A DNA stretch of 64,000 nucleotides, from assembly GCA_002163155.1 (NCBI GenBank), contig MAAO01000011.1:102271-166270 (forward strand), given 5' to 3'. The notes beneath the pieces are model-generated. The model ran no database searches and was not told where the DNA came from. It saw only the letters and a list, made by a program, of their open reading frames with translations. Positions 46,685 through 52,456 of the stretch are shown in pieces. The position numbers and the translations under genes were made by a program. Origin of the DNA: Halobacteriovorax marinus. Lineage in GTDB: Bacteria; Bdellovibrionota; Bacteriovoracia; Bacteriovoracales; Bacteriovoracaceae. How positions within the stretch are numbered: position 1 is the first letter of the stretch; each line of letters begins with the position of its first letter.

Positions 46685-47269
46685 ATGGAATTCAATATAA
46701 AATTTTTAAAACTCTCGCCGAAGTAGGAAGTTTTACAAAAACAGCGAAAATTTTCTATCAATTTCTTCTACACACCAAATACCACCATTGAAAAAGAATC
46801 ACTGAATGGAGAACTAGATATGGGATTCATGTCTACGGCGCCAAAAGATTCTTCTCTAAAAGCGACTGCTATTGATAAAGAAAAGTTCTGTCTAGTAGTT
46901 CCAGTAAATTTAAAGGATTGTTCCTTCGTGGGGATGAGTGAAATTGGATTTATTTATCACCCAGACGGTCTCAGCATGGCCCATGAGGTGTTTTCCCTTA
47001 ACTACCCATCTGTTTATAAAGGAATGGATAAAATTAAGGTCAGCGGATCTATTAATCAAATTACACGTATCCTAGAGCCCGTTGCTCAGGGAATAGGTTT
47101 TACAGTACTGCCAGAGTTTGCTTGTAGAGATTTTTCAAAACAGAAGAGATTAAAGTATATTCCGCTTAAAAAGAATATAATCAGTACCATCTTTGCTGTA
47201 AGTAAGAAGTACCGTAACCTCCCTAAGAGGTGTGACGAAATCCTTCAGTCATTCTTAGATCATAATTAA
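46685..47269 (+). pseudogene. LysR-type regulator, frameshifted and deleted
   Basis: The LysR start MEFNIKFLK (46685, AAGG upstream) continues only in the minus-one frame as TLAEVGSFTKTAKIFYQ, first part of the winged helix. The match then jumps to FFYTPNTTIEKESLNGELDM (46763 on, original frame) and on to the substrate domain and end SFLDHN at 47269. One A is missing near 46709, and about 100 codons (rest of HTH, linker) are gone. The remaining 150-codon frame from 46820 cannot bind DNA by itself. Confidence 0.8.
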
Positions 47270-47698: not shown

Positions 47699-48079
47699 CT
47701 ATATTTTTGAAATTATATGAAATTCAGAAAAAACGTCTTTTAAGAAATTAATGGATACAGGCTTATCCAAAAAGTAGCTGGCACCACAACTTAACACTTC
47801 CTCTCTAATTTTATCATTACCTGACGCTGAAACAACAACCACAGGAATTTGGTGAAACTTTTCATTATCTTTTATTATGGTAAGTACTTCATGCCCTAAG
47901 AGGTCAGGTAAAAAATAATCGAGAATAATCATGTCATAATCTTCTCTATTTAAAAGAGAAAGAGCATGCATACCTGAAAAAGAGAACTCAGTAATTAAGT
48001 GCTCCTCCCTCAGTAGCTGAGTAATTAGAATCTGAAATACTGGATCACTATCAATGATCAAAACCGATTTCTTTTTCAA
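47699..48079 (-). CDS. Stand-alone response-regulator receiver
   Basis: 126 aa, receiver domain only. Phosphorylation site Asp54 (IILDYFLPD), acidic pair Asp10/Asp12 (IDSD), Ser in VVVSASG, and Lys106 (LDKPV). No output domain: a phosphorelay or CheY-like protein. No kinase adjoins it. Confidence 0.9.
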   Translation of the reverse strand: MKKKSVLIIDSDPVFQILITQLLREEHLITEFSFSGMHALSLLNREDYDMIILDYFLPDLLGHEVLTIIKDNEKFHQIPVVVVSASGNDKIREEVLSCGASYFLDKPVSINFLKDVFSEFHIISKI

Positions 48080-48515
48080 AACGATCCCTCTCTGTTATTC
48101 AATTATATGATTAAGACACTTATCTCTCTACGCCAAAGCTGGAACCCCTAGCATAGGAACTTCCTTAAAAATCATGGGCCATATGTCCCAACAAGAAATT
48201 CCATACAAATACAATCCATTTCACAACCTTAAGATAAGATTAAAAGATTAAGATATTGATGGTTTGAGCTGCATTACATTCACAAAAAAAAGACACATTC
48301 CGATGATAATTAAAACACGCAAGATAAAAAAGTTATCCATTAACTAATGCCTTTTTTACAAAGAGCACTTAAATAAATGTATTTATTAATGAGTACTTTT
48401 AGTTGGCTAAAAGTATTTAAGGTCATTTATCTTGCTAAAAAATAGAAATAGAAAAATGCCAACTTTGACGTTCATATTAATTTGTTTTTTGTATATATTT
48501 AATTAAGGCTTTAAT
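48080..48515. other. Divergent non-coding region
   Basis: 436 nt between a receiver gene (minus) and a PAS-HTH regulator gene (plus). It is very AT-rich. It holds the hairpin at 48394-48415, the inverted repeat AATAAAT-GT-ATTTATT (48372-48387) and otherwise no gene I can support. Confidence 0.5.
48394..48415. promoter_or_regulatory. Perfect 9-bp hairpin/inverted repeat
   Basis: TACTTTTAG-TTGG-CTAAAAGTA is exactly self-complementary over 18 of 22 bases. Seven nt upstream is a second perfect inverted repeat (48372-48387). No T-run, so not a terminator. A regulator site for the adjacent PAS-HTH protein is a reasonable guess. Confidence 0.45.
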
Positions 48516-49136
48516 ATGATTGATAATTTTGAAAATTTATATAAGACACTTCCAGTGATGATGCACTCCATTGACAGTCATGGCATTTTAGTCAAAGTTA
48601 ATGATATGTGGCTTAACGTCATGGGTTATAAAGAGCATGAAGTCATAGGAAAGAGATCAACTTATTTCTTAACAGATGAATCACAGATTTATGCAAAGGA
48701 AACAGTTCTTCCAAAATTCTTTGAAACAGGAGAATGTAAGAATATATCCTATCAATTTGTTAAGAAAAATAATGATATTATCGATGTACTTTTATCGGCT
48801 ACATCTGTATACGATGAAAAAGGCACACTTCATAAATCAGTCGCCGTCATAAGAAATATTACCGAAATTAAAAATTTACTCATTCAGATTTTAAAAATGG
48901 AAGATGATGAGCAACTCTTAAACCAAGAAGATATTCCCTATCATACTATGTCTCCAAGAAAAAAACTTTATGATCTGCGAATTGAAAAGAAACTTAGTCA
49001 AGATGAGATGGCAGAGATACTTAACCTTTCCTACAGAACATATCAAAGAATAGAATACGGTCAAAGTCCACTTACTGCGGAACTCATAATTACCATAGCA
49101 AAAACTTTTAAATTCTCTCCCCATTACTTTTTTTAA
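48516..49136 (+). CDS. PAS-domain/XRE-type helix-turn-helix regulator
   Basis: 206 aa. Residues about 5-115 form a PAS domain (FENLYKTLPVMMHSIDSHG, GYKEHEVIGKRS). Residues about 148-205 form a Cro/CI-type HTH (LRIEKKLSQDEMAEILNLS, YQRIEYGQSPL). It may sense redox, light or a ligand and regulate nearby genes, perhaps through the palindromes upstream. AAGG before the ATG. Confidence 0.85.
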   Translation: MIDNFENLYKTLPVMMHSIDSHGILVKVNDMWLNVMGYKEHEVIGKRSTYFLTDESQIYAKETVLPKFFETGECKNISYQFVKKNNDIIDVLLSATSVYDEKGTLHKSVAVIRNITEIKNLLIQILKMEDDEQLLNQEDIPYHTMSPRKKLYDLRIEKKLSQDEMAEILNLSYRTYQRIEYGQSPLTAELIITIAKTFKFSPHYFF

Positions 49137-49189
49137 GTAGCGACAACTCTGGCGTAGCAGAGTGATTTTCTTTAAAATATACTCACCAC

Positions 49190-49573
49190 ATGAATAATAA
49201 TCATTTACTAGAAATTTTAATAGTCGAAGACAATCTCTCAATTAGAGAACTTATTAACGCTATTCTCAACAAGAATAACTTTAGAACAAATTATGCTGAC
49301 AATGGAAGCACCGCTCTTTCTATTTTAAAAGAAAAAGACATTGACCTAGTAATTTCCGATATCAATATGCCTGTGATGGGAGGAATTGAGCTACTAGATT
49401 GTATTAAAGATAACTTCTCTAATCCACACCCTGTCATTTTTGTTTCAGGAGATCCAAACTATGAAGAACTTGCTCTAAAGAAAGGAGCTATTAAGTTTTA
49501 TACAAAACCCTTTCCCATTACAGAATTATTAACTTTTATAGAATCTCACTTTGAAGAAAAACTCTTAGTATAA
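49190..49573 (+). CDS. Stand-alone response-regulator receiver
   Basis: 127 aa, receiver only. Asp57 in VISDINMPVMGG is the phosphorylation site; acidic pair Glu13/Asp14 (IVEDN), Ser86 and Lys106 (YTKPF) are present. It follows the PAS-HTH gene by 53 nt, so they may form a signalling pair. Converges with the RNase Z fusion, 1 nt apart. Confidence 0.9.
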   Translation: MNNNHLLEILIVEDNLSIRELINAILNKNNFRTNYADNGSTALSILKEKDIDLVISDINMPVMGGIELLDCIKDNFSNPHPVIFVSGDPNYEELALKKGAIKFYTKPFPITELLTFIESHFEEKLLV

Positions 49574-49574
49574 A

Positions 49575-51071
49575 TTATAATTTTGAAATAAAGTCATGCA
49601 TTCGATGATAGTGCGATCCTCGCCAATAAATCTTATGACAATTCAAGCAAGTAGAAAAATGATCATTTAAACTATAAACTTTTTCTGGAACTTGATTTTC
49701 AATAGACTCCTTAGAAATCTTTGTAAGAATAGTATTGCATTCGATACACCTAGACAGTGGTATAGCTTTTCCCGAAAGACCTAATTCGTTTACCAAGTAC
49801 TTTATCTGTTCATTCATAGGACAATCTTTTAATGTGATGACTAAGTTCTCTCTAAGGTCCTTTAAGAGCTTTCTATTTCTCGTTAATATAATACGTTCTT
49901 CTTTCTTTGCCCTTTTCATAATTTTTTCAATATCGTACGGGTTATTTGAATAAATCACATCAAACCCAAGAATCCTCATATTCTTTGCTAGTTTTCCAAG
50001 CCCAGATTCGAGAGCAAACTTAACTTGCTCTAGATCATAGTCACTCAATTTAGGAGTTGTGTACTCTTCTTTTTCTTCAATTTTCATATAGCTCACTTCA
50101 TCTATATTTAACTGGCTAACAGTTCCATCAAAATCTAAAATGAATTCATCAAAGTCTTTAGCAAGGAAGAGGTTTTCTCGAAAGTTATCTCGAGCTTCAG
50201 AATAGATGGCATTAATTGAGTTAGTGCCATCTCTATCATTATCACGAAACCGCACGCTAAAATGAGTAAGAATTAAATTCTTAAGATGTGTCGCCCTGGC
50301 CACGCTCGCCACAGATTTTGCGGTACTATGTTTCAACTCAACAGGTATGGAGTTTTTAACTTGTTCTGTATAGGTGGCCTCATGAACCCATAATTGGCAA
50401 CCTATTAGGTGTTCCAGCAATAATTCAGGTTGATCGTTGTCTCCACTTATTATAAGTTTTCTACCTTTACGTTTAGGGCCTATGAGTTCACAGGCCTTGA
50501 TAACTCTCCCATTCTCTAAGGTCACAGACTCTCCCCTTTTAAGCTTAGAAAGTTCAGGCCCTACAGGAATTCCAAATGCTTTTGCCTTTTCAATGTCTAA
50601 TTTTCCTTCCCGTTGCTTCTCTTCAATGACGTAGGCAAAACAAGTGACATTATGAGAGAGAGGGACAGCTGTTACAGTCTCCTCCTCAAAAGAAAAACTC
50701 TCTCCCTGCTCTTTAATTTCATGAATATTTATATCAAAGGTGATGTGAGATTCACTAATGCGCAGGCAAGTTCTAACATATTCGTTTATGCCTTTTGGAC
50801 CGTAGATTGCCAGTGGACTTTCGGACCCTTCCATATTTCTAGAATTAATGATTCCTGCGAGACCATAGATATGATCTCCGTGCAGGTGAGTAATGAATAT
50901 TCTTTTTAAACGATAGAGAGTTAGTGATGTGTAGTGTATTTGATGTTGAGTACTCTCGCCACAATCAAATAAACTCCAATATGAGGACTGTATCCTTCTG
51001 AGGGCGAGTCCTGTGACATTTCTTGTCCTAGTGGGAGATCCCGCAGAGGTTCCCAGGAAAGTTAGTTTCAT
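49575..51071 (-). CDS. rnz: RNase Z fused to a Mut7-C (PIN-like) domain
   Basis: 498 aa. Residues 1 to about 320 are tRNase Z: HLHGDH (62-67), His140, Asp in ISGDND, His248, His270 and an exosite arm with GPKRKGRK (199-206). It trims tRNA 3' ends. Residues about 350-498 are a Mut7-C RNase domain: GLGKLAKNMRILGFD, RIILTRNRKLL, a zinc ribbon with Cys442, 445, 475, 478 (RCIECN, CLNCHK) and YWRGSH at the end. In the Mut7-C part, the first Asp is Glu355 and the Asp of LTRD is Asn399. AAAGGA before ATG. The linker (320-350) is acidic and disordered. Confidence 0.92.
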   Translation of the reverse strand: MKLTFLGTSAGSPTRTRNVTGLALRRIQSSYWSLFDCGESTQHQIHYTSLTLYRLKRIFITHLHGDHIYGLAGIINSRNMEGSESPLAIYGPKGINEYVRTCLRISESHITFDINIHEIKEQGESFSFEEETVTAVPLSHNVTCFAYVIEEKQREGKLDIEKAKAFGIPVGPELSKLKRGESVTLENGRVIKACELIGPKRKGRKLIISGDNDQPELLLEHLIGCQLWVHEATYTEQVKNSIPVELKHSTAKSVASVARATHLKNLILTHFSVRFRDNDRDGTNSINAIYSEARDNFRENLFLAKDFDEFILDFDGTVSQLNIDEVSYMKIEEKEEYTTPKLSDYDLEQVKFALESGLGKLAKNMRILGFDVIYSNNPYDIEKIMKRAKKEERIILTRNRKLLKDLRENLVITLKDCPMNEQIKYLVNELGLSGKAIPLSRCIECNTILTKISKESIENQVPEKVYSLNDHFSTCLNCHKIYWRGSHYHRMHDFISKL

Positions 51072-51127
51072 GAGTTGGTCCTTTCAGACCATTATATCAC
51101 TAACAATTCCTAGAAAAGTGAAGATTC

Positions 51128-52456
51128 CTATGCTGTAACAATCCTAACTTGAGTAAACATACGGTGTCCGGCCACTGAACCATGGAAGTTATAGCCACTT
51201 TGACCTGCGCCAATCCAAGGACTTCCTTTTACACCACCACAGCTTTTGTTTATTCCCACCATACCGGCCTTAAGCCTTCTAGCAGTTTGTTTCGCAAGCT
51301 CTTTATCATTACCAAAGATAACTGAACCTAGTGCGTATTCACCTTCATTCGCTAGCGCTACTGCATGATCAAGATCTTTAACCTTTGTCACACAAGCAAC
51401 AGGACCAAAAGTTTCATTAATCATAATATCCATATCATTTGAGACATTTGTCAAAACTACTGGAGAAAGAAAGTTCGATTCATCTTTACTAGGATCTCCT
51501 AGTAACATTGTTGCACCTTTTTTCATTGCATCTTCTATTTGAGCTAAGACGTGACTTTTTTGTGTCTTATTTATAAGCGAACTCACTTCAAGAGTTTTTG
51601 CCCTTTCAATTAATTTTTCTACTAAGTTGTCGTGATTTTTCTCTGTCACTAAAATCTTTTCTGTGGAAACACAGACTTGACCACAATTTCTAAAACTATT
51701 ATTCGTGGCAAACTTTGAAGCGGCATCAAGATCTACATCATCCATAATGATTAGAGCATCTTTTCCACCAAGTTCTAAAATGACACGTTTTAAATCTTTA
51801 GCGCCAGTTTCTAAAATACTTTTTCCCGTTCTCTGAGATCCTGTAAATGTAATTAGCTGAACATTTGATTCAACTAAGGCCTTCCCTTGAACACCAGCAC
51901 CTACAACAACCTGTAAGACATCTTTTGGTAAGAATTCATTTAAATACTTGGCATAAGCAATACCAATAAGAGTCACTTCTTCACTAGGCTTAAAAACTAT
52001 AGTATTTCCGGCCATAAGAGATGGCATCATAAGAGTGTGTGGCATTCCCATAGGAAAGTTCCAAGGAGTGATACTGGCACAAACACCAAGAGCATCAAAG
52101 TAAGTTGTCGTCTCCATTTCACCAACAGAGTTAACTTCAGGAACAAGGGCCGCTTTGACTTCACCAATCATATTTTCAAGTCCATTGGCATAGGCCTTAA
52201 TTTCGCCAATCGCCTCTGGCATTGTCTTACCCATTTCTTCATGAATAAGCTTTGCAAACCCGTCAAGGTCAGCAGAGATGAGTTTATAGGCCCTACGAAT
52301 AAAGTCACATCTCTCATCAATTGTTAACTGACTCCACTTACCTTGTGCCACATGAGATTTTTCTACTATAGTGTGAATTTCTGAAGTTGAAGTGACAGTC
52401 AACTCTTCCATCACTTCACCAGTTCTTGCATTTAGGCACTTTAATTTATCACTCAT
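51128..52456 (-). CDS. NAD(P)-dependent aldehyde dehydrogenase
   Basis: 442 aa, ALDH superfamily, succinate-semialdehyde-dehydrogenase-like. Catalytic Glu in ILELGGKDALI, Cys in NCGQVCVSTEK, and ETFGPVACV block. PWNFPMGM is the family N-terminal motif. Shorter than usual (about 455-480) by its N- and C-termini. Substrate unknown. Confidence 0.92.
   Translation of the reverse strand: MSDKLKCLNARTGEVMEELTVTSTSEIHTIVEKSHVAQGKWSQLTIDERCDFIRRAYKLISADLDGFAKLIHEEMGKTMPEAIGEIKAYANGLENMIGEVKAALVPEVNSVGEMETTTYFDALGVCASITPWNFPMGMPHTLMMPSLMAGNTIVFKPSEEVTLIGIAYAKYLNEFLPKDVLQVVVGAGVQGKALVESNVQLITFTGSQRTGKSILETGAKDLKRVILELGGKDALIIMDDVDLDAASKFATNNSFRNCGQVCVSTEKILVTEKNHDNLVEKLIERAKTLEVSSLINKTQKSHVLAQIEDAMKKGATMLLGDPSKDESNFLSPVVLTNVSNDMDIMINETFGPVACVTKVKDLDHAVALANEGEYALGSVIFGNDKELAKQTARRLKAGMVGINKSCGGVKGSPWIGAGQSGYNFHGSVAGHRMFTQVRIVTA

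Follow-up and report, generated by a model that had tools for sequence, protein, structure and literature searches.

In MUT-7 and EXD3, the Mut7-C domain is reported to be a module for RNA binding; it follows an animal DEDDy 3'-5' exonuclease, raises the affinity for RNA 6-8 fold and makes decay faster (PMC11347159). The published work regards it as a TOPRIM-like RNA-binding module, as opposed to a PIN nuclease, and reports no significant structural similarity between Mut7-C and PIN domains; the isolated domain binds RNA weakly, and in the nuclease assays it was the negative control (PMC11347159). In prokaryotes Mut7-C is commonly preceded by a Ub-like domain, as in the Ub-Mut7C proteins (PF14451 + PF01927; Rv0579, TM_0779), and nucleic acid co-purifies with Rv0579 (PMC7052010). 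As for RNase Z, many of these enzymes are repressed by the CCA motif, and those of E. coli and T. maritima can process CCA-bearing precursors (PMC7479834); a moonlighting activity as a deAMPylase has also been reported (PMC12663964). Paper searches returned nothing on Mut7-C combined with tRNase Z, nor on RNase Z with a zinc ribbon or a low-complexity tail.

The window analysed here, a stretch of 64,000 nucleotides from Halobacteriovorax marinus, encodes a protein that joins an RNase Z to a Mut7-C domain. With the short bacterial form, RNase Z/RNase BN (1y44/4gcw, E. coli rbn), it has in common the metallo-beta-lactamase (MBL) core, the metal motifs and the exosite, and its RNase Z half is 38-45% identical to members from Pseudomonadota and Bacillota; it differs in the additional 177-residue C-terminal part and in its position outside the sampled Pseudomonadota clade. 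Like RNase ZL (ELAC2), it is a two-part RNase Z with a second module, which in ELAC2 is a degenerate RNase Z copy that helps to hold tRNA, whereas here it is Mut7-C. The order of nuclease followed by C-terminal Mut7-C is that of MUT-7 and EXD3 (8q66), and the fold search with the Mut7-C half ranked the MUT-7 CTD first; however, the nuclease of those proteins is unrelated to RNase Z, and the fusion lacks the insertion between the Cys pairs. Finally, among the matches listed, the Mut7-C half is closest to Ub-Mut7C proteins, with the linker and the last Ub strand still recognisable, but the fusion has RNase Z in place of the Ub-like domain and carries the changes D355E, D399N and E425Y.

Architecture of the fusion protein

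The reading frame runs from the ATG at 51071 to the stop at 49575, without any stop between the domains, and both domains score over their curated cut-offs; the protein is a genuine single-gene fusion, with a real and unusual architecture. In this respect the initial annotation, which had placed tRNase Z and Mut7-C on one chain, was correct, but it omitted the minus strand and the Ub-like domain that commonly precedes prokaryotic Mut7-C. The features are as follows.

49575..51071, minus: RNase Z/Mut7-C fusion gene, complete, 498 aa (ATG start, TAA stop)
51079..51084, minus: Shine-Dalgarno-like AAAGGA, 7 nt 5' of the fusion start (from sequence)
50109..51071, minus: RNase Z domain, residues 1-321 (TIGR02651), reaching the point at which stand-alone RNase Z naturally ends
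50871..50888, minus: metal motif HLHGDH, H62-H67, invariant in the RNase Z alignment
50457..50624, minus: exosite (tRNA-binding arm), about residues 150-205, with GPELSKLKRGESVTLENGR (aligned to B. subtilis 1y44)
50019..50108, minus: linker, residues 322-351, similar to the end of the Ub-like domain in Ub-Mut7C, its last beta-strand plus linker (profile, shuffles)
49590..50021, minus: Mut7-C domain, residues 351-494 (PF01927, AlphaFold2 model, 8q66 fold match)
50007..50009, minus: Glu355, replacing a near-invariant Asp (Mut7-C alignment)
49875..49877, minus: Asn399, replacing the near-invariant Asp of LTRD (Mut7-C alignment)
49638..49748, minus: span of the Cys4 zinc ribbon, C442, C445, C475 and C478 (Mut7-C alignment)
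49611..49628, minus: YWRGSH signature, residues 482-487 (sequence and alignment)

A promoter search gave scores no better than those of shuffles, and the PADLOC anti-phage defence models matched the protein in 0 families.

Regarding the RNase Z half, it was described at first as a complete tRNase Z with all metal motifs, and this holds: it exceeds the NCBIfam RNase_Z cut-off (TIGR02651, 303.7 bits against 292.95, residues 2-310), and it has the full set of metal and catalytic residues (H62, H64, D66, H67, H140, D211, H230, E231, H248 and H270), with H62, H64, D66, H67, H140, D211, E231, H248 and H270 invariant in the RNase Z alignment. The Pfam MBL-fold domain Lactamase_B_2 lies at residues 32-149, the nearest solved structure is B. 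subtilis RNase Z (1y44, E 5.7e-72), and the Azotobacter RNase Z is 44% identical across residues 1-321. Between motifs III and IV lies the exosite arm, its segment GPELSKLKRGESVTLENGR aligning to GPVYQKIKKGETVTLEDGR of the B. subtilis enzyme. In the tree, this half is the sister of a Pseudomonadota RNase Z clade (support 100/99, end branch 0.74), and from its motifs it is expected to dimerise and to cut RNA. The full-length AlphaFold2 model had a mean pLDDT of 55 over the RNase Z half, a low value due to an input alignment with zero RNase Z rows, and only the separate model of Mut7-C was used.

The Mut7-C half matches PF01927 with 139.8 bits against a gathering cut-off of 23.3, over profile positions 2-145 of 146, and it retains R366, R393, R441, all four Cys and W483/G485/H487, with a net charge of +9. 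Both the intact Cys4 ribbon and YWRGSH end and the substitutions at Glu355 and Asn399 had been noted from the sequence, and the comparison with 103 other Mut7-C domains confirmed them: Asp occupies each of the two positions in 98%, part of this set having been retrieved by patterns that require Asp or Glu at 355; in the pattern-free set, with the fusion gene excluded, Asp stands at 355 in 29 of 31 readable rows. These residue changes are established. Among the 30 columns conserved at 85% or more, 25 are kept, the departures being D355E, which preserves the charge, L365M, D399N, E425Y and column 381. Regarding the acidic positions (D355, D371, D381, D399 and E425), D371 is kept and 355, 399 and 425 have E, N and Y, respectively; the acid of column 381 is probably kept as D380, displaced by one residue through an insertion. 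Losses fall in 3/5 acidic columns and in 1/25 of the others (Fisher p = 0.009), a contrast of small numbers that was picked post hoc from the list of departures. Membership in PF01927 stands, since the conserved acids are unnecessary for the curated cut-off, while the claimed catalytic site does not. The "PIN-like RNase fold" of the initial annotation is not supported: the AlphaFold2 model of the separate domain (mean pLDDT 88.9) had the MUT-7 CTD as its top Foldseek match (8q66, TMq 0.53, E 0.003), with no PIN structure among the best 50 matches, in line with the published comparison (PMC11347159).

Origin and distribution

Mut7-C had been said normally to stand by itself or to close the Mut7 protein, which does not fit the relatives found: the nearest Mut7-C domains among the matches listed belong to Ub-Mut7C-type proteins from many phyla, with up to 43% identity, and all five Ub-Mut7C relatives tested were confirmed to contain PF14451 and PF01927; the collection scan for Mut7-C relatives ran to at least 590 stretches. 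An alignment that served solely for setting scan patterns contained two Mut7-C rows with one letter altered to broaden the pattern. BLAST matches extend beyond Mut7-C into residues 310-330 of the fusion protein. A profile of the 32 residues that precede Mut7-C in Ub-Mut7C proteins was compared with residues 320-351: when one single-residue gap was allowed, 0 of 5000 self-shuffles scored as high and 1 of 35621 32-mers from other proteins scored better; ungapped, the shuffle p was 0.0027. This linker match is established, and it consists of a last-strand remnant only, as the PF14451 Ub-like domain has no Pfam match in the fusion protein. The junction is tight, with RNase Z homology stopping at residue 321 and the Ub remnant starting at about 322, and a fusion point at 321/322 is proposed. 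Because the inter-domain residues match the Ub-like strand and linker, the gene most likely arose by the joining of RNase Z to a truncated Ub-Mut7C protein, an origin that is well supported; a complete RNase Z would have displaced the Ub-like domain of a Ub-Mut7C gene, sparing its last strand.

In the Mut7-C tree the fusion has a long branch of 1.87, where the median is 0.42, and takes no definite position. L006 is a Ub-Mut7C protein from another genus of the same family; it likewise has Glu at 355 and lacks the Asp of 399. A clade of L006 and the fusion was not rejected (p-AU 0.64), and both are long branches; the two may be kin, or they may be drawn together by long-branch pull. A Ub-Mut7C gene of the same family (L002 1477-2250, genome G058) has Glu, Ala and Ser at three near-invariant Asp sites; this would be a decay of the acidic site, either in parallel with the fusion or shared with it.

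The restricted distribution of the fusion is likewise established, within searches that were samples covering one part of sequence space. PF01927 matches were limited to 4 of the 129 class genomes, with fusion to RNase Z in this one only; there was no second fusion in 369 genomes of the host's phylum, and neither half had a match in four other species of the genus. The fusion was also absent from samples of 398 Pseudomonadota, 296 Bacteroidota-phylum and 369 Gammaproteobacteria genomes (partly overlapping, about 1050 in all), where RNase Z and Mut7-C were always on separate genes. No plasmid or phage record covered 80% of the protein, viral contigs scanned with the Mut7-C alignments contained zero relatives, and a collection scan with the fusion protein alone, the chosen patterns of which are not conserved, gave no matches. 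The initial annotation had taken the lack of any other genome with the fusion as counting against its reading; none turned up among all the genomes searched, and a singleton provides no comparative proof that the halves work together or that a functional coupling is conserved. Canonical RNase Z had no strong match in the 369 phylum genomes, only weak metallo-beta-lactamase matches, and from these sequences the phylum seems largely to do without this type of enzyme.

In one genome (G674, locus L223, 3086-3883 and 5579-6550), about 1.7 kb separates a Ub-Mut7C gene from rnz, with one citrate-transporter-like gene in this interval; the pairing is possibly due to chance, as it is one case among several genomes with both genes.

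The composition of the fusion gene shows no sign of recent transfer, and its flanking genes (galT-like, aldehyde dehydrogenase, cytochrome P450 and response regulators) give no functional lead. The aldehyde dehydrogenase gene (window 51128-52456, minus) is on the same strand, about 56 nt upstream; its best matches in the four congeners are only about 30% identical, therefore the locus is accessory in the genus. On the other side, a PAS-HTH protein is encoded between two stand-alone response-regulator receiver proteins (window 47699-49573), and a 149-aa LysR substrate-binding domain (window 46820-47269, plus) is likely a remnant, as its DNA-binding half is missing.

Proposed role of the Mut7-C arm

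The preferred reading, with a probability of about 0.55, is that the protein is an accessory RNase Z carrying a non-catalytic, RNA-binding Mut7-C arm. The initial annotation had favoured an RNA-binding arm over a nuclease, and this gained support from the MUT-7/EXD3 work (PMC11347159), from the loss of two Asp and from the retention of the zinc-ribbon scaffold and the conserved Arg/Lys; its proposal that the domain couples 3' processing to decay did not. By analogy with MUT-7 and EXD3, the Mut7-C half would fold around the zinc ribbon and hold RNA without cleaving it, so that RNA 3' regions or trailers would be bound more tightly, and the arm should act as a tether between RNA and the active site of RNase Z. 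Both properties of the arm, RNA binding and lack of nuclease activity, are what we infer from relatives and residues. As for the host, CCA is encoded in 31 of the 31 distinct tRNA genes read in its genome, therefore the fusion RNase Z should be dispensable for making ordinary tRNA 3' ends, and it is unlikely to be essential for tRNA maturation. An accessory role fits these CCA-encoding genes, together with the congeners that lack a detectable RNase Z of this type, and the fusion is probably an accessory enzyme, the substrates of which would be 3' extensions past CCA, defective tRNAs or other structured RNAs.

Against the non-catalytic, RNA-binding arm stand the charge preserved by D355E and the apparent retention of D380. 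The long branch of the Mut7-C half also fits relaxed constraint, and an unlikely explanation that nonetheless deserves weight is a chance fusion with no coupled function, in which RNase Z is normal and the Mut7-C tail is tolerated, drifting baggage in one species. A singleton in every genome searched, at an accessory locus, with a tail that has lost residues, would be expected from it; however, that tail retains its four Cys and 25 of the 30 near-invariant columns, is predicted to be well folded, and, had its 177 codons been drifting, should have gained stops.

An improbable alternative is a two-nuclease protein, with Mut7-C as an active metal-dependent RNase that works together with RNase Z on one and the same RNA. 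Iyer 2006 (PMC1779556) predicted common catalytic residues for Mut7-C and PIN, and D371 and D380 remain, but the Asn at 399 and the Glu at 355 speak against it, as do the structural dissimilarity from PIN (PMC11347159) and the fold search. Somewhat more doubtful still is the removal of AMP from SelO-modified proteins as the main job: SelO occurs in 5/5 genomes of the genus, the host included, and the reaction employs the active site and the exosite of RNase Z, both present in the fusion, yet the four other species have SelO and no detectable RNase Z, and an RNA-binding-type tail is unexpected for a protein substrate. An assembly or sequencing artefact joining two genes is hardly credible even for a fusion seen in one genome only, as the junction is in frame with the Ub-Mut7C-homologous linker directly before Mut7-C, GC3 of both halves is in line with the window, and the gene is internal to a contig whose length is 166 kb or more, one of 16 in the assembly.

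Putative RNA-binding extensions of bacterial RNase Z

In the Bacteroidota-phylum sample, five loci (L206, L207, L208, L211 and L212) encode an RNase Z of about 310 aa with a tail of 130-240 aa, rich in Gly/Arg/Ser/Asn, RGG-like and ending in a conserved DD[FY]DRF; this is an independent C-terminal extension of RNA-binding type. A tentative, rather speculative proposal is that bacterial RNase Z gained an RNA-binding C-terminal arm repeatedly, here by the capture of a Mut7-C domain that became a pure RNA clamp as its acidic site decayed, and in the Bacteroidota phylum as the RGG-like tail.

Should the fusion remain a singleton, its value would be mainly that of a natural experiment. It shows a route by which Mut7-C moves between RNA enzymes, with the loss of the Ub-like domain and the gain of RNase Z, and the fusion to an enzyme for which substrates and assays are known makes the function of bacterial Mut7-C testable. 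If the repeated gain of arms is true, RNase Z would act as a scaffold on which accessory RNA targeting extends beyond the processing of pre-tRNA.
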